From an uncultured Bacteroidales bacterium (GTDB taxonomy: Bacteria > Bacteroidota > Bacteroidia > Bacteroidales > Paludibacteraceae): a stretch of 64,000 nt of DNA. A model generated the notes under the pieces. The model saw only the letters and a program-made list of their open reading frames with translations, was not told the DNA's origin and did not search any database. The translations under genes were made by a program, and so were the position numbers. Shown piece after piece: positions 8,076 to 64,000 of this stretch (positions are counted from its first letter, which is position 1; every line of letters begins with the position of its first letter). The stretch covers positions 124,001-188,000 of the forward strand of contig CACZZL010000001.1 of the NCBI GenBank assembly GCA_902785605.1. Reading direction: 5' to 3'.

Positions 8076-8738
8076 ATGACGATACTGTGTATCGAAACTA
8101 GTACATCGGTTTGTTCGGCCGCCATCTGTAAGGATGGCGAGCCGATCAGCCAGTGTATATGCCGCGAAGGTAGTAATCATGCACGATTGCTACCTCGTTA
8201 TATTCAGCAACTGCTCACCGAGGCACGCCAACAAGGCCTGACCATCGAGGCGGTTGCACTCTCTGAAGGACCGGGCAGTTATACCGGCCTTCGTATCGGA
8301 TCCTCTACCGCCAAGGGACTATGCTACGGACTGAGTATCCCGCTCATTCCCGTTCCGACCCTCGAGGTGCTCAAAATCGCATCCGGAGTCAAGGAGGGCG
8401 TGCTCATCCCTATGATAGACGCAAGGCGAATGGAGGTGTATACCATGATCGACGGTGAGACCAAAGCGGTCGTCGTCGAGAACGAACAGAGCCTGTACAC
8501 CGGAGATCAAACGGTGTATTACTTCGGTGACGGAGCCGAGAAGTGCTCCAAAGTCATCACAAAACCCAACTGGCACTATGTCCCCGGCATCGTGCCCGAA
8601 GCACAATATGTGGGTGCTTGGGCAGAAACTAAAGCGGCTAAAGGCGAAGGGTTGAAGGCGAATGAAATAGCGTACTACGAACCCTACTATCTCAAAGAGT
8701 TCATTGCCGCTCCGAGTCATGTCAAAGGACTTGTATAA
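8076..8738 (+). CDS. tsaB: tRNA N6-threonylcarbamoyladenosine synthesis protein TsaB
   Basis: TsaB is the ASKHA-fold partner of TsaD in making t6A37 on tRNAs that read ANN codons. The 220-aa length fits the family. The N-terminal ATPase-fold strand ILCIETST is at residues 3-10 and the conserved SEGPGSYTGLRIGSSTAKG segment at ~63-81. I chose ATG 8076, 4 bp after the upstream stop, because the TsaB N-terminus begins exactly there; an in-frame extension to 7944 would lie inside the barrel gene. Near the C-terminus (residues ~188-197) the sequence KAAKGEGLKAN is encoded by a heptamer array, in a position that is variable in the family. Confidence 0.93.
   Translation: MTILCIETSTSVCSAAICKDGEPISQCICREGSNHARLLPRYIQQLLTEARQQGLTIEAVALSEGPGSYTGLRIGSSTAKGLCYGLSIPLIPVPTLEVLKIASGVKEGVLIPMIDARRMEVYTMIDGETKAVVVENEQSLYTGDQTVYYFGDGAEKCSKVITKPNWHYVPGIVPEAQYVGAWAETKAAKGEGLKANEIAYYEPYYLKEFIAAPSHVKGLV
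8636..8663 (+). repeat. heptamer array in tsaB (GGCGAAN family)
   Basis: Four 7-bp units: GGCTAAA, GGCGAAG, GGTTGAA, GGCGAAT. It lies in frame in the variable C-terminal part of tsaB and encodes AKGEGLKAN. Confidence 0.7.
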
Positions 8739-8768
8739 AGGTGAAAGGTTATAGGTGAAAGGTTATAG
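8739..8768 (+). repeat. heptamer array forming the tsaB-porW spacer
   Basis: Four perfect alternating units, AGGTGAA and AGGTTAT twice each, begin directly after the tsaB stop codon. The GTG start codon of porW is inside the third unit, so the array supplies both the spacer and the first codons of porW. Confidence 0.9.
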
Positions 8769-11355: not shown

Positions 11356-11380
11356 AAAAAAAGAGAACCGAAGTTCTCTT
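11354..11380 (-). terminator. intrinsic terminator (distal copy)
   Basis: Stem AAGAGAAC / GTTCTCTT with a four-base loop. Read on the minus strand it is followed by nine T, so it terminates minus-strand transcription, converging on the end of porW. It lies immediately beyond a second copy of the tRNA-Pro 3' end. Confidence 0.75.
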
Positions 11381-11475
11381 GTCGGGAAGACGTGATTCGA
11401 AAATTGCGAAACTTCGCAATAATCGTTCGAGCAAAGCGAGATAAGAACACGCGTGGATCGAATCCGTACTTCCAC
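11381..11475 (-). pseudogene. degenerate second tRNA-Pro 3' end
   Basis: Positions 11379-11401 repeat positions 11499-11521 base for base, i.e. the last ~20 nt of tRNA-Pro (T-loop half and acceptor 3' strand), exactly 120 bp apart, and each copy is followed on the minus strand by its own terminator. The sequence between (11402-11475) does not fold as a tRNA body; it holds an 8-bp inverted repeat ATTGCGAA/TTCGCAAT at 11403-11420. Best read as the remnant of a tandem tRNA-plus-terminator duplication, or less likely an attachment-site scar; no integrase is nearby. Confidence 0.5.
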
Positions 11476-11500
11476 AAAAAAACAGCCGAAGCTGTTTTTT
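11474..11500 (-). terminator. terminator of tRNA-Pro
   Basis: Stem AAACAGC / GCTGTTT with loop CGAA and a T-run on both strands, starting one base beyond the tRNA 3' end. It should stop the tRNA transcript. Confidence 0.8.
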
Positions 11501-11651: not shown

Positions 11652-12989
11652 ATGAGTAAAAAATTTTATATTGAGACATACGGATGCCAAATGAACGTCG
11701 CCGATAGCGAGGTTGTTGCGGCTATTATGCAGACCACAGATGCCCAACTGTGCGAGCAGTGGGAGGACGCGGATATCATCCTGCTCAACACCTGTTCCAT
11801 TCGCGATAACGCCGAGCAGAAAGTGGGTGCCCGCCTGCGTGAACTGAAGGCGCATCTCCAGAATCGAAAATCGAAAATCGAGAATCGGGAAAAGATCATC
11901 GGTGTCATCGGCTGCATGGCAGAACGCATGGGGCAGGAACTGATCGATACGTTCGGTGTCGATTTTGTAGCCGGTCCGGATGCGTACCTGGATATCCCGA
12001 ACCTGCTGGCGCAATGCGAACAGGGACACAAGGCGATGAATGTGCAACTGAGCACGACCGAGACCTACCGTCAGATCATTCCGGCGCGAATCGGGCGCTC
12101 CATCAGCGGTTTTGTGTCCATCATGCGCGGGTGCAATAACTTCTGCTCCTACTGCGTCGTGCCGTACACCCGCGGACGCGAACGTAGCCGCGATGTGGAG
12201 TCCATCCTCAACGAGGTACGCGACTTGCAAGCACGCGGATACAAAGAGGTCACGCTGCTCGGTCAGAACGTCAATTCGTATCGCTACGTACGCGAAGACG
12301 GTTCGGTCATCGACTTCGCCGACCTGCTGGAGATAGTCGCCGACGCCGTTCCGGATATGCGTATCCGCTTCACGACCAGCCATCCCAAGGACATGTCTGA
12401 CAAGACACTCGAGGCCATCAGCCGCCACGATAACTTGTGTAAGTTCATTCATCTGGCCGTGCAGTCGGGTTCGAACCATGTGCTCAAACTCATGAACCGT
12501 AAGTACACGCGCGAGTGGTACCTGGACCGCATTGCGGCGATCCGTCGTATCCTGCCCGATGCCGCCATCAGTACGGATATCTTCTGCGGATTCCACGACG
12601 AGACCCTGGAGGACCATGCTCAGACCCTTAGTCTCATGCGCGAAGTGGGCTTTGACTCCGCGTTCATGTTCAAGTACTCCGAGCGCCCCGGCACCTATGC
12701 CCATAAGCATCTGCCGGATAATGTACCCGAAGAGGAGAAAGTGCGTCGGCTCAATGAGATCATCGCACTCCAGACCCAACTGTCGCTCGAGTCCAATCAG
12801 CGCGAGATAGGCAAGATAGTCGAAGTGCTCGTCGAAGGATTCTCCAAACGAAGCCACGACGACATGTACGGACGAACCGGACAGTACAAGACCGTCGTCT
12901 TCCCGCGTACCGATCAGAAGATAGGCGATATCGTCCGAGTACGCGTTTTGGAAGCCTCTGCAGCTACATTACGAGGCAAAATCGTATAA
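11652..12989 (+). CDS. miaB: tRNA-2-methylthio-N6-dimethylallyladenosine synthase MiaB
   Basis: Radical-SAM methylthiotransferase that converts i6A37 to ms2i6A37 in tRNA, acting after MiaA (also encoded in this window). 445 aa, normal length. The N-terminal UPF0004 domain has cluster cysteines in YGCQMN (Cys12), NTCS (~48) and IGCMAER (~88). The radical-SAM motif GCNNFCSYC is at ~159-167, and a C-terminal TRAM domain runs from ~378. Residues ~71-80 (NRKSKIENRE) are encoded by a heptamer array, in the loop just before the third cluster Cys segment, where homologues vary. No consensus promoter is visible in the 24 bp between the tRNA promoter and the ATG. Confidence 0.96.
   Translation: MSKKFYIETYGCQMNVADSEVVAAIMQTTDAQLCEQWEDADIILLNTCSIRDNAEQKVGARLRELKAHLQNRKSKIENREKIIGVIGCMAERMGQELIDTFGVDFVAGPDAYLDIPNLLAQCEQGHKAMNVQLSTTETYRQIIPARIGRSISGFVSIMRGCNNFCSYCVVPYTRGRERSRDVESILNEVRDLQARGYKEVTLLGQNVNSYRYVREDGSVIDFADLLEIVADAVPDMRIRFTTSHPKDMSDKTLEAISRHDNLCKFIHLAVQSGSNHVLKLMNRKYTREWYLDRIAAIRRILPDAAISTDIFCGFHDETLEDHAQTLSLMREVGFDSAFMFKYSERPGTYAHKHLPDNVPEEEKVRRLNEIIALQTQLSLESNQREIGKIVEVLVEGFSKRSHDDMYGRTGQYKTVVFPRTDQKIGDIVRVRVLEASAATLRGKIV
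11862..11890 (+). repeat. heptamer array in miaB (AATCGAA family)
   Basis: Four units AATCGAA, AATCGAA, AATCGAG, AATCGGG within the coding sequence, read in frame as a charged loop. Confidence 0.88.
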
Positions 12990-13751: not shown

Positions 13752-13786
13752 ATTGTACATTGTACATCGTCAAATCGTACATTAAA
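13752..13786 (+). repeat. heptamer array forming the greA-HIT spacer (ATTGTAC family)
   Basis: ATTGTAC, ATTGTAC, ATCGTCA, AATCGTA and a partial fifth unit. It begins at the greA stop and fills the whole spacer up to the HIT start codon. Confidence 0.85.
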
Positions 13787-16942: not shown

Positions 16943-19006
16943 ATGGCAACGAAACAAAAACACCTCAAACTCGTTGAGCGCGACCCGTATCTGCAGCCGT
17001 ACGAAGCGGCCTTACAAGGTCGTTACGACTATGCAGTCAATAAAGAGAAAGAACTGACCGGCGGTCAGCCGCTGGCAGAGTGGGCGACCGGATACCTCTA
17101 TTTCGGCCTGCACAAAACAGCCAAAGGCTGGGTACTGCGCGAATGGGCGCCAAATGCCACCGCGATCTATATCAAAGGCGACATGAACAACTGGGCCAAG
17201 GACGAAGCCTATCGTCTCCAGCCGGTCGGCAACGGCGTGTGGGAAGCCAAACTGCCGAAAAAAGCCATGCAGCACGGACAGCTGTACAAGTTGCTCGTGG
17301 AGTGGAACGGCGGTTACGGAGAGCGTATCCCGTCTTACGTACGCCGCGTCGTTCAGGATGAGCAGACCAAGATCTTTTCCGCACAGGTGTGGGATGAACC
17401 CGAATACGAGTGGAAGCACCGCAACGCTGCCAAGGTGAAGAAAGTCGGCAAGGACGGTCTCTATATCTACGAGTGCCATATCGGTATGAGTTCCAAGGAG
17501 GAGAAAGTGAGCTCGTACGAGGAGTTCCGTCGCGATGTGCTGCCGCGTATTGAGAAACTGGGTTATAACTGCGTGCAGATCATGGCCATCCAGGAGCACC
17601 CTTACTACGGCTCGTTCGGATATCACGTATCTAATTTCTTCGCTGCTTCCAGCCGTTTCGGTACACCGAACGAACTCAAAGCGCTCATCGACGACGCGCA
17701 CGGACGCGGTATGAAGGTCATCATGGACCTCGTGCACAGCCATGCGGTCAAGAACGAACTCGAGGGACTCGGTAACTTCGACGGAACAGGCTATCAGTAT
17801 TTCCATGACGGCAGTCGCCGCGAACACCCGGCCTGGGACTCGCTCTGCTTTAACTACGGCAAGAACGAAGTGCTCCATTTCCTGCTGTCTAACTGTAAGT
17901 TCTGGCTCGACGAATACGACTTCGACGGCTTCCGTTTTGACGGTGTGACCTCCATGATCTACCGCAGTCACGGTCTGGGCGAGGACTTCAATGGCTATCC
18001 GTCCTACTTCAACGGTAACGAAGATGGCGATGCGCTCATGTACCTCACGCTGGCTAACAAGGTTATTCATGAGGTCAAACCCGATGCCATCTCCATCGCT
18101 GAAGAGATGTCCGGCATGCCGGGTCTCGCTTGCCCGATAGCGGACGGCGGCGTGGGATTCGACTACCGTCTGGCCATGGGTATTCCCGATTTCTGGATCA
18201 AGTATATCAAAGAGGTCAAGGATGAGGACTGGAAAGCCGGTCATATCCTCTACGAGATGACCAACCGCCGCGAGGACGAGAAGACCATCTCCTACGCCGA
18301 GAGTCACGACCAGGCACTCGTAGGCGACAAGACCATCATCTTCCGCCTCGTGGATTCCGACATGTACTGGCACTTCGAGCACGGTCATTCGTCCTTCATG
18401 GCCGACCGCGGAATAGCGCTGCATAAGATGATCCGTCTCATTACCGCTTCGACCATCAACGGCGGATACCTCAATTTCATGGGGAACGAATTCGGTCACC
18501 CGGAGTGGATCGATTTCCCGCGGGAGGGCAACGGATGGAGCTGTAAGTACGCTCGTCGTCAATGGGACCTCGTGGACAACCCCAACTATTTCTTCTCGGA
18601 CCTCAACCGCTTCGACAAGGCGATGATCCATCTGCTCAAGAAGCACCTGATCACCCTCAACCCGACCGCAGAGGAGAAGAAGTACAACGTCGGCAAACAC
18701 CTGCCGTGGGTATATAAGTGGGCTGACAACGAGGGCGACCAGGTGGTGGCTTATTCGCGTGGCGACCTGCTGTTCATCTTCAACTGGAACGGACAGAAGT
18801 CCTTTAACGACTACGGTATCCTCGTGCCCTCCGGTAAGTATGAGGTCGTACTCAATACCGATGCCAAGCAGTTCGCCGGCTTCGGCCTCGCGGACGACTC
18901 CGTCGAGCACTTCACCAACTACGACCCGCTCTACGACAAGGACGGCAAGGGCTGGCTCAAGATGTACCTCCCTGCACGGAGTGCAGTCGTTTTGAAGAAA
19001 TCATAA
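16943..19006 (+). CDS. glgB: 1,4-alpha-glucan branching enzyme (GH13)
   Basis: 687 aa. Makes alpha-1,6 branches in glycogen; pairs functionally with the GT3 glycogen synthase encoded at 47.4-49.0 kb. N-terminal CBM48 at ~residues 60-145, then the GH13 barrel with nucleophile region DGFRFDGV (~329-336), acid/base region AEEMSG (~386-391) and transition-state His-Asp in ESHDQ (~452-456). The sequence resembles the eukaryote-like (GH13_8) branching enzymes (FGYHVSNFFAASSRFG, FMGNEFGHPEWIDFPR). The stop codon lies in the first unit of a heptamer array that fills the spacer to nagB. Confidence 0.96.
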   Translation: MATKQKHLKLVERDPYLQPYEAALQGRYDYAVNKEKELTGGQPLAEWATGYLYFGLHKTAKGWVLREWAPNATAIYIKGDMNNWAKDEAYRLQPVGNGVWEAKLPKKAMQHGQLYKLLVEWNGGYGERIPSYVRRVVQDEQTKIFSAQVWDEPEYEWKHRNAAKVKKVGKDGLYIYECHIGMSSKEEKVSSYEEFRRDVLPRIEKLGYNCVQIMAIQEHPYYGSFGYHVSNFFAASSRFGTPNELKALIDDAHGRGMKVIMDLVHSHAVKNELEGLGNFDGTGYQYFHDGSRREHPAWDSLCFNYGKNEVLHFLLSNCKFWLDEYDFDGFRFDGVTSMIYRSHGLGEDFNGYPSYFNGNEDGDALMYLTLANKVIHEVKPDAISIAEEMSGMPGLACPIADGGVGFDYRLAMGIPDFWIKYIKEVKDEDWKAGHILYEMTNRREDEKTISYAESHDQALVGDKTIIFRLVDSDMYWHFEHGHSSFMADRGIALHKMIRLITASTINGGYLNFMGNEFGHPEWIDFPREGNGWSCKYARRQWDLVDNPNYFFSDLNRFDKAMIHLLKKHLITLNPTAEEKKYNVGKHLPWVYKWADNEGDQVVAYSRGDLLFIFNWNGQKSFNDYGILVPSGKYEVVLNTDAKQFAGFGLADDSVEHFTNYDPLYDKDGKGWLKMYLPARSAVVLKKS

Positions 19007-19053
19007 ATTTGAAATCATAAATTTGAAATCATAAATCATAAATCATAAATTAA
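18998..19053 (+). repeat. eight-unit heptamer array, entire glgB-nagB spacer
   Basis: Eight consecutive 7-bp units of AAATCAT/AAATTTG type, 56 bp in all. The first unit supplies the last Ser codon and TAA stop of glgB, and the last abuts the nagB ATG, so the region before the nagB start is entirely repeat. Confidence 0.95.
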
Positions 19054-41860: not shown

Positions 41861-42312
41861 TTGGTCTCAACAACTTTGGAGAAATAGAACTTATTGCTGG
41901 AGCGGTCTTTCTCGTAGTACTCGAGGTCCGTGGAGGTCAGTTTGGTGACCACATACACCTTGGGTATCTCCGCACCGCCGTTGTCCATGAGATGAATCTC
42001 CGTCAGCTTGCCGTTGGATTCGAATTTATACTTGAACCAACCGTTGCCGTAAGGGAGTAGGTCCTCTTCGAACACGTCCTCTGCCTCGTCCCATTCGCGG
42101 CCGTACAGATAACTGGTCTCATCGGATTGCTCGCTCGTGAAACGTACGAAATGTTCCGTGTTGTTTTCTTGCCACAACGCCTGCAGGCTGCTCAACTGAT
42201 ACGACGGCTCTTTGTCCTTACCGCCTATCATCGAACAACTGCTGAACGCAATTCCCACCAGCGCTACCAGCGCCAAACTGATTACTGATTTCTGAATGCT
42301 GAATGCTTTCAT
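41857..42312 (-). CDS. hypothetical lipoprotein
   Basis: 151 aa with a lipobox AFSSC (Cys26). The rest is a small beta-rich domain (LQALWQENNTEHFVRFTSE, WFKYKFESNGKLTEIHLMD). Not recognised, though it resembles small lipocalin-like lipoproteins of the phylum. The first ~12 codons (MKAFSIQKSVIS) are written in a heptamer array. It sits 2 bp after ileS and overlaps the AsmA-like gene, so it may work in the envelope with that protein. Confidence 0.75.
   Translation of the reverse strand: MKAFSIQKSVISLALVALVGIAFSSCSMIGGKDKEPSYQLSSLQALWQENNTEHFVRFTSEQSDETSYLYGREWDEAEDVFEEDLLPYGNGWFKYKFESNGKLTEIHLMDNGGAEIPKVYVVTKLTSTDLEYYEKDRSSNKFYFSKVVETK
42280..42307 (-). repeat. heptamer array encoding a lipoprotein N-terminus
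   Basis: Plus-strand units GATTACT, GATTTCT, GAATGCT, GAATGCT. On the coding strand they provide codons ~2-11 of the signal peptide n-region. Confidence 0.85.
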
Positions 42313-42314: not shown

Positions 42315-45300
42315 TTATGCTTTTTCAATTTTGATGTTCACGTTATAACCGTCCATCTCGACAGCCTCACCTTGTACGTCGGTTGCCAACTGCAATGAAG
42401 TAGCCAATACCTGACCGGCGATATACTCGTTGCAATGCAGCACGGCGTTGTGGATCTCTTTGCGATCTTCGATGCTCACCTTAATGCGGTCGGTGATCTC
42501 CAAACCGGAAGACTTACGCAGGTTTTGGATGCGGTTAATGAGCTCACGGGCAATTCCTTCCTCGATCAGTTCGTCCGTCAATTCGATATCGAGCGCGATC
42601 GTAAGAATACCGTTGTTGGCCACAAGCCATCCCGGCATGTCCTCGGTGATGATCTCCACATCTTCGGGCACAAGCGTGTAGTCGAGTAGGGTGAACTGTC
42701 CGTCAGTTTCCATCTTAGCGATATCGTCTTGACTCATCGCGGTGATAGCCGCAGCCAGCTCTTTCATCTTACCACCCACTTTCTTACCGAGCACTTTGAA
42801 CTGCGGTTTGATCTTCTTAACCAGTTTGATCTCACTCTGCTCGGCCGGTACGATGACCAGTTCCTTGACGTTCACCTCGCTCTTGATGAGGTCGGCTACG
42901 TGCAGCAACGCATCGGTCGTCTCTTGGTCGGGGGTCGGAATGACGGCCTTCTGCAGCGGTTGACGCACGTTCTTCTCCGCACGCTTACGCAGGCTGAGGA
43001 TCGTACTCGTTGCCTGTTGAGCCAAATACATCTGACGCTCCAGGTTGAGGTCAATGAGACTTTCGTCTGCCTTGGGCCAATTGCTCAAGTGGACGGTCTC
43101 TCCCACTAAGTCGCGATAGAGACGGTCGGCATAGAACGGAGCGTTCGGAGCCATGAGTTGGGCAACAGTCTTGAGGCAGGTATAGAGCGTCTCGTAGGCT
43201 GCCTGTTTGTCGGCATTCATCTCACCGCCCCAGAAACGTTTACGGTTGAGACGCACGTACCAGTTACTGAGGTCATCCTGCACGAAGTCCGAGATCGCAC
43301 GACCGGCTTTGGTCGGCTCGTAGGCCTCGTAGGCTTCGGTCACCTCTTTGACGAGCGAATTGAGCTTTGAGAGAATCCAACGGTCGATTTCTGAATACTG
43401 ACCACTGAATGCTGACGGCTCCCAACCATCCACGTTGGCGTAGAGCGCGAAGAACCCGTAGGTGTTATAGAGGGTGCCGAAGAACTTACGGCGTACCTCG
43501 TCCACGCCTTCGGGGTCGAATTTCAGGTTCTCCCACGGGCTGGAGTTAGTCAGCATGTACCAGCGTACGGCATCGGCGCCATAGGTGTCGAGCGCACCGA
43601 ACGGATCGACGGCATTACCCAGACGCTTGGACATCTTGTTACCGTTCTTATCGAGCACGAGGCCGTTGGAGATGACGTTCTTGTACGCCACCGTGCCTTC
43701 GATCATCGTATGGATCGCGTGGAGTGTGAAGAACCAACCGCGGGTCTGGTCTACTCCTTCGGAGATGAAATCGGCCGTGCGCGGTGCATCGGCGTGCTCG
43801 AAGGGGTAGTGGTTTTGTGCGTACGGCATGGCTCCTGAATCGAACCAAACGTCGATCAGGTCCAACTCACGTTTCATCGGCTTGCCCGACGGCGAGACGA
43901 GAACGATGTTATCCACATACGGACGGTGCAGGTCGATCACCGACGGGTCGTAGTTGGCTTTGGAGTAGTCGCCTACCACATGCTTCGGCCAAGGGTTCGC
44001 CTTCATGAAGCCCGCCTTGACGGATTTATCGATCTCTGCGAACAACTCTGCGATCGAACCGATGCAGATCTCTTCCTGTCCGTCTTCGGTACGCCAGATC
44101 GGCAGCGGAGTACCCCAGTAACGGCTGCGGCTGAGGTTCCAATCGTTGAGGTTGTTGAGCCATTGGCCGAAACGACCGGTTCCCGTCGATTCGGGTTGCC
44201 AGTTAATGGTCTTATTGAGCGCGATCATGTCCTCGCGTGCTTTGGTCGATTGGATGAACCAGCTGTCGAGCGGGTAGTAGAGTACAGGTTTGTCGGTACG
44301 CCAGCAGTGCGGATAGGAGTGTACATGCTTCTCGGTCTTGAGCAGACGACCGTCACTTTTCATTTCCAGACAGAGATGCAGATCAAGTGATTCGGCTTTG
44401 GCTGCTGCCACCTCGTCGTACTTACCGTCCACGGTGAACTGCGGGTCATAGGCGTTCTTCACCCACCGGCCGGCATACTTACCGTATAGTTCGGTGTTGA
44501 CGTTCGCAGCTACCCATTCGGGATCCAGGTCGTCGATGTTCCAGTACTTACCGGTGAAATCAACCATCGGGCGCGGGCCGTAGTTCTTGGTCTGCATGTA
44601 CAGACCCGGTACACCGGCTGCGTCTCCCACTTTCTTATCGTCCGCACCGAAAGTCGGGGCGATATGCACAATACCTGTTCCATCTTCGGTCGTCACGTAG
44701 TCACCCGGGATGACACGGTATGCACCCGGTCCCGGGTTCACCCACGGGAAGAGGGGTTCGTACTCGAGTCCTACGAGGTCCGTACCTTTGTAGCGGGCTA
44801 CGATGTTGGCGTTCTCGAAGTATGCGGACAAACGTGCCTCGGCCAGAATGATATGTTCACCACTCTCCAGTTCGATCTCGACGTAGTCGATCTTCGGTCC
44901 TACGCACAGCGCGGTGTTCGAAGGCAAGGTCCACGGAGTCGTCGTCCATGCGATGATATAAGTATTCTCGCCAATTTTTAATTTTTCATTTTTAATTTTT
45001 AATTTAAACTTAGCGGTGCAGGTCAGATCCTTCACATCGCGGTAACAACCCGGTTGGTTGAGCTCGTGCGAACTCAGACCCGTGCCGGCAGCCGGCGAGT
45101 AGGGTTGAATGGTGTAACCCTTATAGAGGTAACCTTTCTTATAGAGCTCTTTGAGCAGGTACCACAGGGTCTCGATATACTTGTTGTCGTACGTGATATA
45201 CGGGTCGTCGAGGTCCACCCAATAACCCATCTGCTTGGTGAGGTTGGTCCACTCGCGCGTGTACTTCATCACCTCACGGCGGCAAGCCGCGTTGTACTCA

Positions 45301-45644: not shown

Positions 45645-45664
45645 ATATCTGATTCAAAAAAGTC

Positions 45665-45696
45665 CTTTGTACATTGTACATTGTCTCTTTGTACAT
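45665..45696 (-). repeat. heptamer array in the C69-ileS spacer (ATTGTAC family)
   Basis: TTTGTAC, ATTGTAC, ATTGTCT, CTTTGTA and a partial unit. Same family as the greA-HIT spacer; occupies most of the 52-bp spacer and reaches the C69 stop region. Confidence 0.85.
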
Positions 45697-47403
45697 TTAT
45701 TCATGTGTAATCTCCGGTGCTACCATCTTAAGGAACGGTTCGGGCAGCGGCAGACGGTTCGGTCCGCAGCTCTGTCCGTAGGGGTTCCGTTTGAAATCAC
45801 CGTTCTCTTCCTTACGCTCCTGTCCGTCGAGGAACTTGGTCATCAGGTAGATACCCAGGTTTTGCCAATCGGCCACCAGGTTCTCTGCCTGCGAGCAGGA
45901 GAAAGCGGTGAGGAAAGCACGTGCTTCTTCATCGCTCAGATCGGCCACCTGTGCATCAATGCCCGCTGTCTGCGCGTTGAACTTATCGTCCCACACCTGT
46001 TGACGTTCGCGGATATGCGGGTACATACGGCTGTACTTGGTGTAGGCCCAGTTGGCTACGATGTTAAACGTCCACCATGCGCTGGTCGGGGAGTAGGTGT
46101 AACTGTCTCCGTTCCCTTCCGCAAAGCACTCGGGGATGCGGTTGATACAACTGTACATCGGCGCGTAGCACGAGCAGGCGGCATCATCGACACCGAACCA
46201 GAAGATACCATAACGGTTGAAACTGCGCATCTGTGACACGAACGACCAAGCGGTCTGTTGGGTCGCTGTCGGGCGCTCGTACCAGTATTGGAGCGTGTCC
46301 GTACCGTTCACGGCGCACTTGAAGCCCAGACCACCGTAGCGCAGTTTGCTGTTCCACGGACCGGCATCGGTGCCTTGGGTGATATCCAGCGGCGTACCTT
46401 TGTACTCGTCGCGCATGCACTCTTTGAGATCCTGCGCACTCACTTTGCGGTTCGGAACGATCCACAGCGGCATATGCTCGCCTTCGTTCTGACCGGCTGT
46501 CTCCCGGAAGGTCTTACCGCTTGCATAATCGAAGTAGCGGTCCATGTCATCGCTGAAATGGCGGAAGAACGACCATACACGTGCTTCGCATACATAGAGT
46601 CCGCTGAAGTCGAATGGGTTGTACGCTGCTTGGAATGAAAAATCCTTGTCAGCACCGCTGAAGAACCCTTTCTCGCGGGCGAAGGAGATAAGCTCTTTGT
46701 CCCACATCCAGTCCCCGTGACATACGCAGTTCAGTTTCTTCTGCAGCCGTTTCTGCTCCGCCGTCAGTTTGGCTTTGCCTTGGGGCAGGGTTGTTATACG
46801 TGCCTGGTTGGCATGACCCGCAATCGCATTGTCCGGAATGCGTACAGCGACCCAGTTAGCCCCTTTGCGACCGGGACCTTTTCCAATCAGGTCCATGATC
46901 CATACCTCGTTCGGGTCACCGATGGAGAACGATTCGCCTTCGGAAGCGTAGCCGTACTCGTTGACGAGTGTGATCATCCACTCGATGGCTTCGCGGGCCG
47001 TCTTACTGCGCTCCAGCGCGATGTAGATGAGACTGCCGTAGTCGACACCCACCGTGTCCCACAGCGCTTCGCGACCACCCCAGGTTGTCTCACCGACGGT
47101 CACCTGGTGTTCGTTGGTGTTACCCACGACCGAATAGGTGTGTGCTACCTGCGGGATCTGCCCCTGTTCACGACCGGTGTCCCAGTCTTTGACGGTGCGC
47201 ATCGCTCCTTCGGGATAGTCCGCTGCGGGAGCAAAATGCAGAAAACCGTACATGCCGTACGAGTCCGCTGCGTAAGATATCATTGTACTGCCGTCCGCCG
47301 ACGCCTCTTTGCCGACGAGGAAGTTGGTACAGGCCTGTACAGGCGAAAGGTTATAGGCGAGAGGCGAGAGGAGCAGCAGGGCTGCTAAGATATATTTTTT
47401 CAT
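45697..47403 (-). CDS. C69 family dipeptidase, secreted
   Basis: 568 aa N-terminal nucleophile hydrolase of the PepD(A)/C69 family. Signal peptide to Ala24, then Cys25 in CTNFLVGKEASADGS, the catalytic cysteine that becomes the new N-terminus after cleavage. Conserved GETTWGGRE and GYASEGESFSIGDPNEVWIMD segments follow. Exported, so it probably acts on peptides in the periplasm. I start at ATG 47403 (upstream codons lie within the glycogen synthase gene), overlapping that gene by 4 bp. The hydrophobic core of the signal peptide (LSPLAYNLSP) is encoded by a heptamer array. Confidence 0.92.
   Translation of the reverse strand: MKKYILAALLLLSPLAYNLSPVQACTNFLVGKEASADGSTMISYAADSYGMYGFLHFAPAADYPEGAMRTVKDWDTGREQGQIPQVAHTYSVVGNTNEHQVTVGETTWGGREALWDTVGVDYGSLIYIALERSKTAREAIEWMITLVNEYGYASEGESFSIGDPNEVWIMDLIGKGPGRKGANWVAVRIPDNAIAGHANQARITTLPQGKAKLTAEQKRLQKKLNCVCHGDWMWDKELISFAREKGFFSGADKDFSFQAAYNPFDFSGLYVCEARVWSFFRHFSDDMDRYFDYASGKTFRETAGQNEGEHMPLWIVPNRKVSAQDLKECMRDEYKGTPLDITQGTDAGPWNSKLRYGGLGFKCAVNGTDTLQYWYERPTATQQTAWSFVSQMRSFNRYGIFWFGVDDAACSCYAPMYSCINRIPECFAEGNGDSYTYSPTSAWWTFNIVANWAYTKYSRMYPHIRERQQVWDDKFNAQTAGIDAQVADLSDEEARAFLTAFSCSQAENLVADWQNLGIYLMTKFLDGQERKEENGDFKRNPYGQSCGPNRLPLPEPFLKMVAPEITHE
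47341..47368 (-). repeat. heptamer array encoding the C69 signal-peptide core
   Basis: AGGCGAA, AGGTTAT, AGGCGAG, AGGCGAG on the plus strand, ending 12 bp before the codon of the catalytic Cys. Confidence 0.88.
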
Positions 47404-48968
47404 AATAGTCTTGGGTTTTGAAGTTCGTTGATTCGTTTGTCTCGTTTTTTCAATGCGATGTCGTAGGCCTGGCGGTAGTACTTGAAGAAATGCTTCCAAT
47501 CGGCTTTCTTGGCGACTGCTTCGGCTTCCTTACGTGCCCGCGCTTTGTCTTCTTTCGACAGACGGTCAAAGCGCAGCAGGTCCTCGGCGATGTGGTCTGC
47601 CACCTCGTCGAAGTTAGAGTCATTACGCTTAATGACGATCACACCGTACTGATCTTTCTGTTGCGCTGCCCATACACCGAAACCGGTCAACGAGGTCGTG
47701 ATGGTCGGTACATGGAACGCACAGGACTCCAGCGGTGTGTATCCCCATGGTTCGTAGTAGGACGGGAACACGCTCACGTCCATTCCGATAAGCAGGTCGT
47801 AATAGGTCTTGCCGAACAGCGGGTCATGACCGTCCAGGTAATAGGGAACGAACACGGCGCTCACCCGGCCTTTGCGGGACGGGGCGCGGTCGAGGTAAGG
47901 GATCATGACGAACGCAATCACTTCGCGCTCCAGTTGCTGGCTGTGGTAGATCTTCTGTGCCAACTTATCCAGCGCGGCAGCGAACACGTCGATACCTTTG
48001 TTCTTCCACTCCAGCCGGCCGGAGATGCACACGAACAGGGCGTTCTCGGGTACGACACCGCCGAGCTGTTCGCCGGCCACCTTACGCAGTACTTCGCGTG
48101 CTTCGGCACGTTTGAGATCGAAGTCTTTGCCTTTGGGCACGTAGGTCGGTTCGAATCCGTTCGGGGTGACGATATCAACAGGTTTGTCGAGCAGCTGCTT
48201 GCACTCGCGTGCTGTGATGTCACTCACGGTCGTGAAGCAGTCGGCATGCTGCGCAGCCTGTTTTTCTACGGAGTGCTTGCTGACCATGTTCAGTTCGTAC
48301 GCCATCTGGTCCCCGTTGTACCCTTCGAAATAGTCGTACAGCGGTTTGCCGTTGCCGGCTATCGAACGACCGATACCGGTGGCATGGGTGGTGAACAGGG
48401 TCGCGATCTGCGGACAGTGGTCTTGCAGGTAGAAGATCGAGAACGCCGTCTGCCATTCGTTGGCATGCATGCAGAACTGCGGAGCACGGGATTTTTTAAT
48501 TTTTAATTTTTCATTTTTCATTATCCAGTGGTACAGACTCTCCATCACCATGCCGGCTGCGTAGCCGAACAGGCAGGACTCGTCGTAGTCGCCGTAGGCG
48601 GCATGACTCTGCACTTGGAACTTATCCCATGCCCAGGCGTAGATCTCGTCCTTGTGCGCCCACAGCGCATCGAACTTAAGCAGGATAGCAATCGGTTCTC
48701 CCGGCACCATCCAACGACCGATTCGGACAGGGATGTCTTCTTTCAACTTTCCACTTTCAACTTTCCACTTTTTGAGAAGATCGCGATCTTCTCGAAAATA
48801 GATATCACTATGGTCTCCGAAGTCGGGACCGAAGAAGAACACTTTGTCGGGGTGTTCAGCTTGCATGGAAGCGGCACGGGTGCTCAGTACGGCATAGATA
48901 CCGCCTACGCGGTTGCACACTTCCCATGAGGTTTCAAATATATAATCCGGTGTATTCATTTTCATCAT
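47400..48968 (-). CDS. glycogen synthase, GT3 (eukaryote-like) type
   Basis: 522 aa glycosyltransferase that elongates alpha-1,4-glucan. The N-terminus ETSWEVCNRVGGIYAVLST matches the GT3 glycogen synthases of yeast and animals, a type common in Bacteroidota. The C-terminal half has SGRLEWKNKGIDVF and PSYYEPWGYTPLESCAF (family acceptor/donor site). Functional partner: GlgB at 17-19 kb. Two heptamer arrays sit in frame: KWKVESGKLKED (~residues 67-78) and IMKNEKLKIKKS (~150-161), both in loops that vary between homologues. Start ATG 48968 lies at the edge of a third array. Confidence 0.9.
   Translation of the reverse strand: MMKMNTPDYIFETSWEVCNRVGGIYAVLSTRAASMQAEHPDKVFFFGPDFGDHSDIYFREDRDLLKKWKVESGKLKEDIPVRIGRWMVPGEPIAILLKFDALWAHKDEIYAWAWDKFQVQSHAAYGDYDESCLFGYAAGMVMESLYHWIMKNEKLKIKKSRAPQFCMHANEWQTAFSIFYLQDHCPQIATLFTTHATGIGRSIAGNGKPLYDYFEGYNGDQMAYELNMVSKHSVEKQAAQHADCFTTVSDITARECKQLLDKPVDIVTPNGFEPTYVPKGKDFDLKRAEAREVLRKVAGEQLGGVVPENALFVCISGRLEWKNKGIDVFAAALDKLAQKIYHSQQLEREVIAFVMIPYLDRAPSRKGRVSAVFVPYYLDGHDPLFGKTYYDLLIGMDVSVFPSYYEPWGYTPLESCAFHVPTITTSLTGFGVWAAQQKDQYGVIVIKRNDSNFDEVADHIAEDLLRFDRLSKEDKARARKEAEAVAKKADWKHFFKYYRQAYDIALKKRDKRINELQNPRLL
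48493..48520 (-). repeat. heptamer array in GT3 synthase (TTTTTAA family)
   Basis: TTTTTAA, TTTTTAA, TTTTTCA, TTTTTCA on the plus strand; encodes MKNEKLKIKK, almost the same peptide as the ileS array 3.5 kb away. Confidence 0.92.
48740..48767 (-). repeat. heptamer array in GT3 synthase (CTTTCAA family)
   Basis: CTTTCAA, CTTTCCA, CTTTCAA, CTTTCCA, strictly alternating; encodes KWKVESGKLKE. Confidence 0.92.
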
Positions 48969-48995
48969 TCATCTTTCATCTTTCATCTTTCATCT
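48961..48995 (-). repeat. heptamer array spanning the PKD-GT3 junction (TTCATCT family)
   Basis: TTCATCA followed by four TTCATCT units. It contains both the TGA stop of the PKD lipoprotein (48992-48990) and the ATG of the glycogen synthase (48968), so the whole spacer is repeat. Confidence 0.93.
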
Positions 48996-49997: not shown

Positions 49998-50886
49998 AAT
50001 CATCTTTGGCATTGAGCCAATGTATTTCTTTGTCGCGTCGGAACCAAGTCAATTGTCGCTTGGCGTAATGACGCGTGTTTTGTTGTATGAGTTCAATAGC
50101 GCGGTTCAGATCGTACTCGCCGTCGAAGTAGGCGAACAGCTCTTTGTACCCGACTGTCTGCAGGCTGTTGAGGTGCCGTTTGGCATAGACCCGCCGTGCC
50201 TCGTCCACCAGTCCGTCGTCGATCATCTGCAGCACGCGGCGGTTGATGCGGTCGTATAACTCTTCCCGCGGCCGGTCGAGCCCGATCTTGAGGATGCGGA
50301 ATGGCCGTTCTTTCTTTAGCCTCTCGCCATTAGCCTTTAGCCGGAGCAGACTTGAGTATGCGACTCCTGTCGTCAGGCATAACTCGACGCAGTGCATCAG
50401 CCGGGCAGGGTTGTTTTGGTCCACCTGTTCCCAATAAACCGGATCGAGGCGTTGTACTTCCTCTTGCAACCACTTTAGCCCTTCGCCATTAGCCTTTAGC
50501 CCCTTCGCCCTCACGTCGTTTCGTATCTCTGCCGGTACGGCAGGCAGGTCGTCCAGTCCGTTGCAGACGGCATCGGCGTAGAGCATCGATCCTCCGGTCA
50601 TGACCAGCACGTCGTGGGTTGCAAACAGCTGCTCCATGAGCGCCAGCGCATCCCGCTCGTACTGCCCCGCGTTATAATCCTCTTCCAATGCGCGCGTGCC
50701 TACGAACCAGTGTTGCGCGCGCGTAAGTTCTTCCGGGGTCGGAGCTGCCGTGCCGATAGGGATATCACGGTACACCTGACGGCTGTCGCAGTTGAGTATC
50801 GGACATCCGTACCGCTCCGCCACACCCAACGATAGTTCCGTCTTTCCGACCCCCGTCGGTCCTACTATGAGCAGAAGAGTTTTCAG
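49945..50886 (-). CDS. miaA: tRNA dimethylallyltransferase MiaA, apparent CTG start
   Basis: Adds the dimethylallyl group to A37 of tRNAs reading UNN codons, the substrate for MiaB (11.7 kb). P-loop GPTGVGKT (residues 9-16), DSRQVYRDIPIG (~33-44), GGSMLYADAVCNGLD, and KERPFRILKIGLDR are all present. The first ATG/GTG/TTG in frame (TTG 50829) would delete the P-loop; upstream of it the frame is open only to CTG 50886, with a stop two codons further. CTG-AAA-ACT reads as a normal MiaA beginning (MKTLLLIVGPTG). The CTG belongs to a heptamer array. Two more arrays encode internal loops. 313 aa with this start. Confidence 0.88.
   Translation of the reverse strand: MKTLLLIVGPTGVGKTELSLGVAERYGCPILNCDSRQVYRDIPIGTAAPTPEELTRAQHWFVGTRALEEDYNAGQYERDALALMEQLFATHDVLVMTGGSMLYADAVCNGLDDLPAVPAEIRNDVRAKGLKANGEGLKWLQEEVQRLDPVYWEQVDQNNPARLMHCVELCLTTGVAYSSLLRLKANGERLKKERPFRILKIGLDRPREELYDRINRRVLQMIDDGLVDEARRVYAKRHLNSLQTVGYKELFAYFDGEYDLNRAIELIQQNTRHYAKRQLTWFRRDKEIHWLNAKDDYEKNNSIIDTLLRSDRL
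50315..50342 (-). repeat. heptamer array in miaA, distal (TTTAGCC family)
   Basis: TTTAGCC, TCTCGCC, ATTAGCC, TTTAGCC on the plus strand; encodes RLKANGERLKK just before the conserved KERPFRI segment of MiaA. Confidence 0.9.
50474..50509 (-). repeat. heptamer array in miaA, proximal (TTTAGCC family)
   Basis: TTTAGCC, CTTCGCC, ATTAGCC, TTTAGCC, CCTTCGCC. Encodes AKGLKANGEGLK, the same wording as the TsaB and second MiaA inserts. Confidence 0.9.
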
Positions 50887-50907
50887 TGTTCAGTATTCAG
50901 TGTTCAG
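50880..50907 (-). repeat. heptamer array at the miaA start (TGTTCAG family)
   Basis: TTTTCAG, TGTTCAG, TATTCAG, TGTTCAG. It fills the 22-bp spacer to the upstream gene and contains the presumed CTG start codon of miaA. Confidence 0.92.
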
Positions 50908-50908
50908 T

Positions 50909-59110: not shown

Positions 59111-60531
59111 GAGAAAAGGCTAATGGTTATAGGCTAATGGCTAAAGGTTATAGGCTAAAGGCTAAAGGTTATAGGCTAATGGTGGTGATGGTATTGTTAC
59201 TTTCGCCGTTCGCCCTTCGCCTTTCGCCTTTATTTGCGCAGTCGAACCTGAACTACACCGTTCGGGTGGGGGCACAGGGAGAGGTGCAGGTGCTGCAGGA
59301 TTTCCCGGAGAGCTACGCGGCGGAGAAAGTGAATATAAAACTAGGAAGCCTAGAAACCCTAGGAACCCTAGGAGACCTAGGAAACATAGACCATCTCGAC
59401 TTCGTGTTTGCGAAGGAGGAACTGCCGTTAGAGGACCGTTTTGTCAGCGTCTATAGTTACACAGACGAGTCGGAGACGACCTGGACGGTGTGGCGCAGTA
59501 CGAAAGAGCCGAAGAACACCAAGTTGCGTGTGCAGACGCGCAACGGGCGTAATGCGTTCGAGCACTACCTGCACGAGACGCTGGACGAGCACCGCAGTCA
59601 CGGATGGATATGGTGGGTGTTTGCCGGTGTGGCATTGGCCTTGGCGCTGGTAGCGGTGTGCATGCAGATCATCCAACGGCGCAAAGAGAAGAGCCTGTCC
59701 AGCGTGGAGCAGGAGACACTGCGCCGCAAACGGATGGGTATGCGCAGACATTATATCTCGCAGGCGTACCTGTGGGTGCTGCTGCTGGTGCTGTACGCCC
59801 CGATCGCACTGATCGCGGTGTTCTCGTTCACCAACAGTAAGATCCTCGGTAACTGGACGGGATTCTCGTTGGACCTGTATGCGAACCTGTTCACCGGCAA
59901 GGCGGACGCGGGTCTGAACAGCGCCATCTGGTACACGGTGATCATTGCACTGGTTGCTGCGGTGTGCTCAACGATACTGGGCACCTTGGCCGCGATCGGT
60001 ATCTATAACATGCGTGCCCGCAGTCGTAAGATGGTGAGCCTGCTGAACTCGGTGCCGATGATCAACCCCGACATCATCACCGGTATATCGCTGTTCCTGC
60101 TGTTTGTGGCGCTGGGCATGAGTCAGGGTCTGGTGACGGTGTGCATTGCCCATATCGTGTTCTGTACGCCGTACGTGGTACTGAGCGTGCTGCCGCGTCT
60201 GAGCCGTATGAACCCCAACACGTACGAAGCGGCACTGGACTTGGGGGCGACCCCGGCACAGGCGCTGCGTATGGTGATGCTGCCTGAGCTCTGGCCGGGT
60301 ATGCTGTCGGGATTCATCTTGGCCCTGACGCTGTCGGTTGATGACTTCGGCGTGACGTTCTTCACCAAAGGAAGCGGCGGTTTGGAGACGCTCAGTACGT
60401 TCATCTACTCCGATGCCCGCAAAGGCGGTCTGACCCCGGAGTTGCGACCGCTGTTCACGATTATCTTATTAGTGATGTTGACTGTTTTGATCTATATCAA
60501 TTTTCGAAATAAAAAACAAGAAGAAGAATGA
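59107..60531 (+). CDS. potC: polyamine ABC transporter permease PotC with unusual N-terminal extension
   Basis: 474 aa where PotC is normally ~260. The permease core starts near residue 212 (HYISQAYLWVLLLVLYAPI) and carries the EAA loop EAALDLGATPAQALRMVMLP (~374-393). The first ~210 residues are extra: an N-terminus of 7-residue repeats (AKGYRLK type) encoded by a nine-unit heptamer array, a signal-like segment ending LSPLFAQ encoded by a second array, a ~125-aa predicted extracytoplasmic beta-rich region containing a 9-bp repeat, and a membrane helix (WWVFAGVALALALVAVCMQI, ~165-184). The frame is open throughout; two proteins fused is the simplest reading. Overlaps potB and potD by 4 bp each. 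Confidence 0.85.
   Translation: MREKANGYRLMAKGYRLKAKGYRLMVVMVLLLSPFALRLSPLFAQSNLNYTVRVGAQGEVQVLQDFPESYAAEKVNIKLGSLETLGTLGDLGNIDHLDFVFAKEELPLEDRFVSVYSYTDESETTWTVWRSTKEPKNTKLRVQTRNGRNAFEHYLHETLDEHRSHGWIWWVFAGVALALALVAVCMQIIQRRKEKSLSSVEQETLRRKRMGMRRHYISQAYLWVLLLVLYAPIALIAVFSFTNSKILGNWTGFSLDLYANLFTGKADAGLNSAIWYTVIIALVAAVCSTILGTLAAIGIYNMRARSRKMVSLLNSVPMINPDIITGISLFLLFVALGMSQGLVTVCIAHIVFCTPYVVLSVLPRLSRMNPNTYEAALDLGATPAQALRMVMLPELWPGMLSGFILALTLSVDDFGVTFFTKGSGGLETLSTFIYSDARKGGLTPELRPLFTIILLVMLTVLIYINFRNKKQEEE
59118..59180 (+). repeat. nine-unit heptamer array encoding the PotC N-terminus
   Basis: GGCTAAT, GGTTATA and GGCTAAA units, nine in a row (63 bp), giving a protein repeat of period 7. The longest array in the window. 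Confidence 0.95.
59201..59228 (+). repeat. heptamer array in the potC signal segment (TTCGCC family)
   Basis: TTTCGCC, GTTCGCC, CTTCGCC, TTTCGCC; the opposite-strand form of the GGCGAAA family. Encodes LSPFALRLSPL. Confidence 0.92.
59341..59385 (+). repeat. 9-bp tandem array in potC (CTAGGNNNN family)
   Basis: Five 9-bp units beginning CTAG(G/A), e.g. CTAGGAAGC, CTAGAAACC, CTAGGAACC; encodes an LGT/LGD-type three-residue repeat in the extracytoplasmic region. Confidence 0.92.
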
Positions 60532-61772: not shown

Positions 61773-64000
61773 GAAGAATCCAACTAGGCATCCTAGGACT
61801 CCTAGGTTTTCTAGGCCTCCTAGTTTCTCCAGCCCAGGCGCAGACCTCGGAGATGGAGCAGCGCTATAATGCGTTGGCGGAGCGTTTTGAGGTGCGCGAC
61901 AAGGCGCTGATGCGCGATCTGAAAACGTACCTGCAGGCGTACCCGTACACCACGTTCGTGGACGAGGTGAACTTCATGCAGGCTGTGCTCTATGCCGAGA
62001 AATCGGTCTATAAGCAGAGCCTGAAGATGTTCGAGACCGTGGACCGCAAAGCCCTCACCCGTCCGCACCAACTGGACTACTCGTTCTACCGCGGATACAG
62101 TTTCATGATGCTGGAGGACTACCGCAGTGCGCATGTCTATTTCCACGTGCTGAGTAAGACGGAGAACCGCTACACGGTGCGTTCCAAGTACTACTATGCG
62201 TACTGTATGTACAAACAGGGCGAGTACGACAAGGCGCTGCCGTACTTCAACCAGTTGGAGAACGACCCGACCTACGCCAAGACCGTACCGTATTTCCTGA
62301 CGCAGATCTACTACGCCAAGGGCGAGTACGATGAGGCGGAGAACCGTGCGTTGGCGCTGCTGCAGGCGAGTCCGGAGAACGAGAACAACCCCGAGTTACA
62401 CCGTATCTTAGGTGAGATATACTACTTCAAGGGCGATAACCGTCAGGCGGTCGATCACCTGTCGCAGTACGAACGTGCCGCGACGGCGAACAAAGAGGAG
62501 TTGGTGCGCAATGACATGTACATGCTCGGTGCGGCCAATTACCGTCTGGGTCAGTACAACGAGGCGGTGCAGTACCTCAAGAAAGTGAAGCAGCAGAGCG
62601 ATACGCTGTCCGAGGCTTCCTGTCTGATCTTAGGTCACTCGTATGTGGCGCTCAAGCAGCCCGAGCAGGCGATGCTGTCGTACCAAGCGGCAGCCGGGTA
62701 CAAGTTGACTCCGGCTGTGACGGAAGAGGCGTCGTACAACTACACGCTCTGTACCTACCAATCGTCCAGTGCGCTGGGTGAGTCGGTGCGGGCGTTCAAT
62801 GAGTTTTTGACGACCTTCCCCAATTCGAAGTACGAGAACAAGGTCTATCAGTTGCTGTCCGATGCGCTGATGCGCTCCAAGAACTACGCTGCGGCTATCT
62901 CGACGCTGGATTCGATTCCGAACCCGACGCCTAAGATGCTGCAGACCAAGCAGTACCTGCGCTATCAGTTAGGTGCCGATTGTTTCCTGCAAGGAAAGAT
63001 GCAGCAGGCGATCGACTGGACGACCGAGGTGATCAACCACGCGTCTGAGTCGGACCAATACACGACCGAGGCGTATTACCTGCGTGCCGAAGCGGAGTAC
63101 CGCTTGCGTAATTATGTAGCGTGTGAGGCGGACGTGAACCGTTTCCTGGCGCGTGCGGATGCCAAGCAGTCGGATAACTACACGATCGCTAAGTACCTGA
63201 AGGGTTACACCGCGTTCTCGCAGGGTAAGTACAACGAGGCGCGTACGGCGTTCTCGGCGTATATCGATGCTGCGCTGGCGACCGAACCGACCTATGCCGA
63301 TGCACTCAACCGTATCGGTGACTGTTATTTCAACGCGCGCGATTTCAGCCATGCTATATCGTACTACACCCAGGTGAGCAACATCAACGCGACCGGAGCG
63401 GACTATGCGCTGTTCCAGAAAGGGTATGCGCTCGGTCTGCTGCATAAGTACGACGATAAGATCAGCGTGCTCAAGGACCTGATCCGTCGCTACCCGCGTT
63501 CGGATTATGCGGACGACGGCACGTACGAGATTGCCCGTGCGCAGTTGCAGAAAGATGATGAGCGCGGCGCTATACTGACCTATGAGCAGTTGCTGAGTGT
63601 GTATCCGCATTCGCCGCTGGCGCGTAAGGCTTCGCTGGAGCGTGCGATGCTGTACCGTAACCTCGGTCAGAACGATGAGTCGTTGGCGGCTTACCGTCAG
63701 ACGATCGAGAAGTACCCGGCGACCGATGAGGCTTATGCGGCATTGGATGCCGTGCAGGCGCTCTATGTGGAGTTGGGCCGTGTGGACGAGTATCTGGAGT
63801 ACGCTAAGACGCTGGCGCGCATGAACATGAACGTATCGACGCAGGAGGATAGTCTGATCTATGCCTCGGCGGAGATCCAGTATATGCAGGCTGCATATCA
63901 GAAAGCGGCGGTGTCGCTTAATAACTACATCACTCAGTTCTGTGCCGGCGGTCGTTATTGCACGACGGCGCGGTACTACCTGGCGGATTCGTATTACCGC
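61769..64000 (+). CDS. TPR-repeat secreted protein (partial, runs off the window)
   Basis: Open frame from ATG 61769, overlapping the potD stop (ATGA), through the last base, 744 codons with no stop. Signal peptide MRRIQLGILGLLGFLGLL ending SPAQAQ, then tetratricopeptide-like repeats throughout (YNALAERFEVRDKALMRDL, ARTAFSAYIDAALATEP, GDCYFNARDFSHAISYY, RGAILTYEQLLSVYPHSPLA). Large periplasmic TPR proteins of this sort are common in the phylum; a scaffold role is likely. The hydrophobic core of the signal peptide is a 9-bp tandem repeat. Co-transcription with potABCD is suggested by the overlap, though a link to polyamine uptake is unproved. Confidence 0.85.
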   Translation, partial: MRRIQLGILGLLGFLGLLVSPAQAQTSEMEQRYNALAERFEVRDKALMRDLKTYLQAYPYTTFVDEVNFMQAVLYAEKSVYKQSLKMFETVDRKALTRPHQLDYSFYRGYSFMMLEDYRSAHVYFHVLSKTENRYTVRSKYYYAYCMYKQGEYDKALPYFNQLENDPTYAKTVPYFLTQIYYAKGEYDEAENRALALLQASPENENNPELHRILGEIYYFKGDNRQAVDHLSQYERAATANKEELVRNDMYMLGAANYRLGQYNEAVQYLKKVKQQSDTLSEASCLILGHSYVALKQPEQAMLSYQAAAGYKLTPAVTEEASYNYTLCTYQSSSALGESVRAFNEFLTTFPNSKYENKVYQLLSDALMRSKNYAAAISTLDSIPNPTPKMLQTKQYLRYQLGADCFLQGKMQQAIDWTTEVINHASESDQYTTEAYYLRAEAEYRLRNYVACEADVNRFLARADAKQSDNYTIAKYLKGYTAFSQGKYNEARTAFSAYIDAALATEPTYADALNRIGDCYFNARDFSHAISYYTQVSNINATGADYALFQKGYALGLLHKYDDKISVLKDLIRRYPRSDYADDGTYEIARAQLQKDDERGAILTYEQLLSVYPHSPLARKASLERAMLYRNLGQNDESLAAYRQTIEKYPATDEAYAALDAVQALYVELGRVDEYLEYAKTLARMNMNVSTQEDSLIYASAEIQYMQAAYQKAAVSLNNYITQFCAGGRYCTTARYYLADSYYR
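61784..61828 (+). repeat. 9-bp tandem array encoding the TPR-protein signal peptide
   Basis: CTAGGCATC, CTAGGACTC, CTAGGTTTT, CTAGGCCTC, CTAGTTTCT. Same CTAGG family as in potC 2.4 kb upstream, but in a different reading frame relation, here coding LGILGLLGFLGLL. Confidence 0.93.

Follow-up and report, generated by a model that had tools for sequence, protein, structure and literature searches.

Heptanucleotide tandem arrays are dispersed through the genes and spacers of a 64-kb stretch of bacterial DNA, G000:C1:124001-188000 (hereafter the window, meaning this whole stretch), which belongs to G000, a Paludibacteraceae metagenome-assembled genome (MAG) of 2.08 Mb and 83.5% completeness. Following up a prediction made from the letters of the window, we compared these arrays with those of related genomes and arrived at a reading to which we give a probability of about one half: the arrays are laid down as ~30-bp patches that replace local sequence en bloc and are neutral where they are tolerated. 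Among its supports are two comparisons, one of enzyme loops in which net length can be measured against the reading frame, and one of close genomes in which whole arrays are exchanged at the same slots.

The dominance of heptamers in bacteria has been ascribed to polymerase slippage, and we know of no direct test of this idea; Mrazek is said to have invoked, in 2007, a polymerase footprint for a 7-nt preference in slippage. The genus of G000 lies near Candidatus Colicola; this and other MAGs of uncultured Bacteroidales and Paludibacteraceae, many from rumen or gut, are the nearest relatives with a name. The many species of this genus serve as natural replicates for a given slot, and the frame of essential genes as a ruler, which makes the origin of heptamer arrays testable here; the arrays also show one way in which repeat DNA turns repeatedly into the sequence of protein loops.

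Abundance and restriction to one genus

The window was scanned with Tandem Repeats Finder (TRF; score at least 30, with 20 order-1 shuffles as controls) and with a self-shift scan (score at least 12, also against shuffles). TRF returned 20 period-7 rows at ~19 sites against a mean of 1.05 per shuffle, and 11 rows against none when the score was raised to at least 40; the self-shift scan gave 11 at period 7 against 0.05, with 0-2 at every other period save the harmonics at 14 (7) and 21 (4). The dispersed heptamer arrays of the original prediction are thus real and the families it listed are present. Its count of at least 23 arrays exceeds the ~19 period-7 sites found at this threshold, to which weaker ones can be added by eye; as for its two 9-bp arrays, TRF reports seven period-9 rows (0.9 in shuffles), of which the two with CTAGG are the only clear examples.

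The system reaches well beyond the window. A 464-kb sample of G000 (the window plus 20 stretches, ~22% of the genome) holds 91 period-7 arrays, far above the ~0.8 expected from shuffles; other periods from 2 to 13 give 0-15, with harmonics again at 14 and 21. Across the genus, 80 loci centred on one conserved gyrase-B-like gene (1.43 Mb in total) contain 197 period-7 arrays, with at least one array in 61 of the 80, and since these loci overlap by orthology their counts are non-independent. As controls, one 20-kb stretch per genome was taken from 20 other genera of the family and from 20 other Bacteroidota (12 of the same class). Expressed per 400 kb, G000 has 77 period-7 arrays, the other family genera 5 and the other Bacteroidota 7, and within the sampled genomes the heptamer excess is limited to the genus. 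Heptamers are the leading but not the sole repeat class there, because the G061-G065 loci (L135-L170) are rich in other arrays as well (55 of period 7, 45 of period 8, 45 of period 11 and 34 of period 15). The genus records that could be named are MAGs or uncultured-bacterium assemblies, and assembly error is unlikely to be the source of the arrays because they lie in frame in essential genes and identical arrays occur in separate assemblies.

Enzyme loops measured against the reading frame

Loops were compared in 55 orthologues of two enzymes, isoleucyl-tRNA synthetase (IleRS) and glycogen synthase (GlgA), which are ~55-92% identical in protein and carry 20 arrays (16 in IleRS, 4 in GlgA). 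For IleRS, 41 genomes were searched and the counts refer to the 30 orthologues among the matches listed; the 16 arrays lie in 11 sequences at about five sites. Others lie at about residues 733-766 and 983-1018. One site is the slot at residue 214, where the window carries an AATTTTT x4.7 array (44973..45005, residues 214-224) with which the loop exceeds the modal array-free one by 27 bp. Three families (AAAAATT, GCCAATT and AGTCGAA) fill this slot in different species, five sequences in all, the short modal loop is found in ten orthologues, and 25 of the 30 have no scored array there, so that four besides G000 carry one. At GlgA residues 149-159 the window has a TTTTTAA/TTTTTCA array (48493..48522), and relatives fill the same slot with other arrays: the scan finds AAAGGTT in L222 and AGTCGAA in L228, and by eye there are heptamer-like arrays in L224 and L220, a palindromic element in L218 and a period-9 repeat in L221. 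The loop is short and bare in L219 and L226. Comparing orthologues in this way is how the original prediction had proposed to refute itself, and the outcome supports it.

In-frame growth of a resident heptamer predicts that loop length changes by multiples of 21 bp. Relative to the modal array-free loop, a nonzero multiple of 21 is found for none of the 16 IleRS arrays and for one of the 4 in GlgA; net changes run from -9 to +45 bp and the frame is kept. In-frame slippage of a resident unit therefore does not fit. The arrays themselves are 27-35 bp long in 18 of 20 cases, and so the block size looks set, rather than being reached by changes in unit count.

These results bear directly on ordinary replication slippage, which with a 7-nt preference could act on resident sequence while later point mutations and indels mask its history. 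We regard this explanation as unlikely, though a serious one: heptamers are the commonest or an over-represented class of long simple sequence repeats in many bacteria, according to the available parts of two papers (PMC4692102; PMC4679880, citing Mrazek 2007), but the scarcity of multiples of 21 is against it. So is the presence of MutS1 in G000, on account of which loss of mismatch repair was also rejected as a cause. A search for seeds in the array-free orthologous loops did not discriminate (18 of 20, with 15.6 expected), its criterion being too permissive.

Turnover among close genomes

Five genomes of ~90-97% identity, with 55 arrays, yielded 27 merged loci comparable in at least two genomes. 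By our reading, 7 of these loci are unchanged in every genome compared, 3 change in length only, and at 17 at least one genome lacks the array or has it replaced or disrupted. Phase-variable contingency repeats vary in unit number between strains; the genomes at this distance, none of them clearly strains of one species, mostly show whole-array change. Arrays that are shared often retain their unit variants, as does one of 31 bp that four genomes have in identical form. Unit number and variants are preserved even where sequences have diverged by several per cent and whole arrays get replaced, which again speaks against slippage. The original prediction had favoured insertion over free slippage, and this turnover, together with the rarity of multiples of 21 in the enzyme loops, sides with it. 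Among the replacing sequences are other heptamer families, palindromic elements and arrays of 8-12 bp units. Between a stop and a start codon, G064 carries a four-unit array of 28 bp where G065 and G062 have a bare junction, and the G064 assembly contains no second copy of it at up to 3 mismatches.

Alternatively, homologous recombination might import spacer or loop alleles from other species, the arrays themselves being old; we consider this quite improbable. Around 28 swapped slots, the nearest 50 bp show a divergence of 0.108, a value that includes slot misalignment, and it falls to 0.037 at 50-150 bp, about equal to the 0.035 found beyond 2.5 kb. That divergence is at background from 50 bp outward argues against long imported tracts, and import would leave unexplained the origin of a variety of arrays at a single slot.

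Several observations nevertheless count against en-bloc replacement. When the second or third commonest loop serves as the reference, two more arrays (both in L262) become multiples of 21, which raises the total to as many as 3 of 20, roughly what chance would give. It is not certain that the modal array-free loop is ancestral, and at the protein identities given above extra indels could blur multiples of 21. Nor are the 20 arrays all independent, as L242/L255 and L260/L262 look like shared alleles. Slippage fits the CTTTCAA/CTTTCCA array at 48740..48771 (GlgA residues 66-77), which is +21 bp relative to the modal loop with a seed present, and also one spacer array of the sisters L080 and L079 that differs by exactly three units, a clean step of +21 bp. 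Some array alleles are common to non-sister genomes (G062=G065, G063=G065), and in the 250-bp bin holding the slot the lineage with the shared allele is more identical than the sister; such alleles imply that recombination contributes, and the 28-bp G064 insertion could have been imported in this way, a 3-mismatch relative of it being carried by G062 at another place. In the ~22% of the genome sampled, imperfect 28-mers are shared by 8 array pairs (2.6 and 2.1 in the nulls), a result that is no more than suggestive of block copying between loci, most other word lengths giving weaker signals.

Unit families and array size

Once rotations and strands are merged, the 91 G000 arrays comprise 43 unit necklaces. 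Families recur at distant loci on either strand, as had been predicted, with no preference of orientation: identical units are shared by 127 pairs of arrays, far above the 6.4 and 17.6 of the two nulls, for which the maxima of 2000 are 24 and 42. To speak of about ten unrelated families was too strong, since a degenerate composition pattern is common to the units in all subsets. Its score in log units per array exceeds 20 column-permuted nulls in each: 3.05 against at most 2.42 in G000 spacers, 3.56 against at most 2.64 in G000 genes, 2.75 against at most 2.27 in genus spacers and 3.01 against at most 2.38 in genus genes. We name no single motif because the exact consensus varies between subsets.

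Arrays were also tallied by whole units, the group totals being arrays with a score of at least 10. The 56 in G000 spacers include 8 of two units, 9 of three, 21 of four, 9 of five, 4 of six and 5 that are longer; the 28 in the middle of genes include 7 of two, 8 of three, 12 of four and 1 of five. A modal size of about four units, as first noticed in the window, holds in both groups. In the genus loci four units are again the most frequent size in mid-gene arrays (32 of 67), and in spacers (n=114) the mode is split between three units (34) and four (29).

Two further patterns touch on slippage. The 7-mers of arrays are enriched close by (rate 0.0061 at 8-60 bp, 0.0013 at 60-150 bp and 0.0030 at 1-3 kb), which favours it. 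An order-invariant detector finds contiguous two-by-two blocks of unit variants in 10 of 17 columns in G000, where one third is expected, and this too is in its favour, but only in 6 of 40 in the genus, which is not; the clade gives 1 of 7. Copying of unit variants between neighbours (contiguous AABB blocks) was tried as an explanation and rejected: the strong excess seen with a lag-based detector is treated here as a detection bias, because it is lost with TRF-defined arrays and is inconsistent with the order-invariant detector.

Location, orientation and RNA structure

Genes were called with our own codon-usage script, so that start positions are approximate. In the G000 sample, the 58.2 kb of spacer contain 56 arrays and the 405.8 kb of genes 35, which makes arrays 11 times as dense in spacers. 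They sit mainly in short spacers, and some in protein loops. Divergent spacers are depleted, with 3 arrays in 9.6 kb (below expectation, P 0.003). The 45 arrays of co-directional spacers have an edge near the upstream stop in 27 cases and near the downstream start in 18.

Such positions would suit regulatory sites acting in translation or DNA binding, as has been proposed for the TAACTGA repeats of Beggiatoaceae, and the degenerate pattern common to the units would suit them too. We nevertheless judge a regulatory role very unlikely. Orientation relative to transcription, by the common unit register, is 28 sense to 17 antisense in G000 spacers (P 0.14, non-significant) and 46 to 38 in genus spacers, without significant preference; the RNA structure of the arrays is not below that of shuffled letters (mean z -0.48, 45 arrays); and arrays are replaced between sister genomes and occur inside essential enzymes. 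Lag-7 autocorrelation in spacers proved an uninformative signal.

Possible origin of the blocks

Under en-bloc replacement, the genus would maintain a fast turnover of short DNA patches, a single event swapping a few to some tens of bases for a block of ~30 bp. The block would consist mostly of four to five heptamer near-copies and less often of an array of 8-12 bp units or a palindromic element. It would arise or arrive in one short-patch event, perhaps by burst synthesis at a primer-template misalignment, or by microhomology capture of a short single strand in the manner of short-patch double illegitimate recombination (SPDIR), a process of Acinetobacter for which a literature search under the full name gave no paper. 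SPDIR would resemble the proposed patches in being a short en-bloc replacement of arbitrary net length, and the observed length changes fit en-bloc replacement; tandem heptamer content and genus-wide scale belong to the present arrays only, and for the one insertion examined (G064) no donor is found elsewhere in its own assembly. Ku-dependent end joining does not agree with the absence of a Ku gene from all 31 genus genomes searched. The arrays may have no sequence-specific job, selection only deciding where they survive, namely in short operon or convergent spacers, gene ends and tolerant protein loops, and the machinery that synthesises the block would itself set the 7-nt step. More tentatively, the genus may have an activity of its own for writing or repairing DNA in steps of 7 nt, which stamps ready-made blocks of four to five units (~30 bp) into the chromosome and has repeatedly given essential enzymes such as IleRS new loops of repeat-coded peptide.

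We give the lowest probability to synthesis of the arrays on the template of a DRT10-like or telomerase-like reverse transcriptase, or their transport by a mobile element. DRT10 is described, in the accessible part of one paper, as making tandem-repeat cDNA (PMC12632851), palindromic elements occupy array slots, and among genus genomes RVT_1 has a match in 10 of 41 and Y1_Tnp in 13 of 31 (9 over the cut-off). Yet RVT_1 has no match in G000 (at its 83.5% completeness) nor in 31 of the 41 genomes, 13 of the 16 good-quality ones included, which makes a reverse-transcriptase template unlikely; Y1_Tnp likewise has no match in G000, and each genome has many different units.

Comparison with known heptamer systems

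Several degenerate heptamer families are also dispersed in filamentous cyanobacteria as short tandemly repeated repetitive (STRR) sequences, and the 43 recurrent necklaces in 91 arrays match that description; those belong to another phylum, however, and their units are rare or absent here (STRR1 0/91, STRR2-type 3/91, STRR3 0/91).

Also comparable are the heptanucleotide long simple sequence repeats of the Mrazek type, in which, as related in parts of PMC4679880 and PMC4692102, a 7-nt unit is dominant, the distribution is scattered over lineages and the intergenic excess is strong in some groups. Period-7 repeats above chance are found here as well, but whole-unit slippage misfits most of the compared arrays (multiples of 21 in 1 of 20, at most 3 of 20; length-only change in 3 of 27 loci), and arrays here also occupy loops in essential enzymes and replace one another as complete arrays.

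The TAACTGA repeats of Beggiatoaceae, cyanobacteria and some Bacteroidetes are likewise mostly of 2-6 units, often near start codons and patchy in relatives (PMC4679880, in the portion available); here there are many unit families instead of one and no significant strand bias, and the TAACTGA unit occurs in 0/91 G000 arrays and 1/197 genus arrays. The GGGAATC repeats of Xanthomonas and GGGGAYT repeats of Nostoc are intergenic and vary in sequence and length between close relatives, those of Xanthomonas having a modal four units, but they form one G-rich, putatively quadruplex-forming family, whereas units here are diverse and often A/T-rich (PMC4692102, from the sections at hand); GGGAATC accounts for 1/91 G000 arrays.

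The original prediction knew of no such system in Bacteroidota. In the part of MacGregor 2015 available (PMC4679880), however, TAACTGA heptamer repeats are listed in five Bacteroidetes, including two sets in Paludibacter propionicigenes, and 'larger assemblages of heptamer repeats' are mentioned for Elizabethkingia. By titles and the beginnings of abstracts, with subscription journals thinly covered, we found no literature on a heptamer system in Paludibacteraceae beyond those two Paludibacter sets. Bacterial heptamer arrays, a modal four units (in Xanthomonas) and presence in Bacteroidetes, this family included, are already known. The same literature searches brought up no multi-family system of such density, nor one confined to a single genus, nor complete arrays exchanged at fixed slots, nor the repeated filling of essential-enzyme loops. 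Overall, the observation behind the prediction is confirmed and its interpretation is supported in part.

Other arrays of the window

Arrays at gene junctions and in spacers begin with AGGTGAA/AGGTTAT (8737..8768, by TRF and gene calls), which shows a 14-bp alternation and lies at the junction of two co-directional genes. An ATTGTAC array (13752..13783) occupies a junction where one gene ends at 13751 and another starts at 13760, and AAATCAT/AAATTTG (18997..19051) fills the spacer behind a branching-enzyme-like gene (stop 19006; next start 19054). TTGTACA (45667..45697) lies in the spacer 45645-45696, TTCATCT x6 (48955..48995) fills the spacer upstream of glycogen synthase, and AGTGTTC/AGTATTC (50878..50908) adjoins the stop of the minus-strand gene 50909-51460. 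Two weak arrays, CTTTAGC (50314..50342) and TTAGCCC (50475..50511), share a stretch without a called gene. Further on, GGCTAAA/GGTTATA x9 (59115..59183) fills the spacer 59110/59179, and the 9-bp array TCCTAGGAC (61791..61823) stands in the spacer 61772/61853.

Within genes, AATCGAA x4.3 (11862..11891) lies in a radical-SAM/UPF0004/TRAM (MiaB-like) gene (11652-12989), AATGACC (27698..27724) near the 5' part of a dihydroorotate-dehydrogenase/ferredoxin-domain gene (27484-28938), and a weak TCATTGG array (39687..39715) in a TamB-like gene (38858-41860). A short AGGCGAA x2.4 array (29544..29560) is found in an M20-peptidase gene, two of whose three aligned orthologues have other residues there. 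The 5' ends of genes hold ACTGATT/GCTGAAT (42277..42307; minus-strand gene 41857-42312), a short AGGCGAG array (47355..47371; C69-peptidase gene) and TTCGCCT/CTTTCGC (59200..59231; BPD_transp_1, an ABC permease gene); this last gene also contains the 9-bp array CTAGGNNNN (59341..59389). No aligned orthologue in the 80 genus loci spans the array at 27698 or that at 42277. Elsewhere in the window, 8755-11355 encodes a PorW/SprE type IX secretion lipoprotein (NCBIfam NF052312), and a 1728-aa open frame at 1395-6581 gave no match in an NCBIfam search at E 0.001.

Other repeated elements of the genus

Palindromic elements (of the CCCTCCCTT..AAGGGAGGG and GTCTGTCAG..CTGACAGAC types, by eye) share slots with heptamers in spacers and protein loops, even inside genes (L093, L140, L135; L218 in GlgA). 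Between the close genomes of L137 and L148, palindromic arrays of ~12 bp (CGATATATCGA type) in L137:13700-14750 differ by 93 and 71 bp, and longer spacers of L136 (213-430 and 1408-1572) differ in blocks from those of the sister L146, one of them with a GGGGACCCC palindrome. L080 contains three short elements of ~60-95 bp (12771-12863, 18378-18442 and 21615-21673), each recurring several times among the matches listed for the seven genomes searched, which are possibly repetitive extragenic palindromic (REP)-like or small-RNA families.

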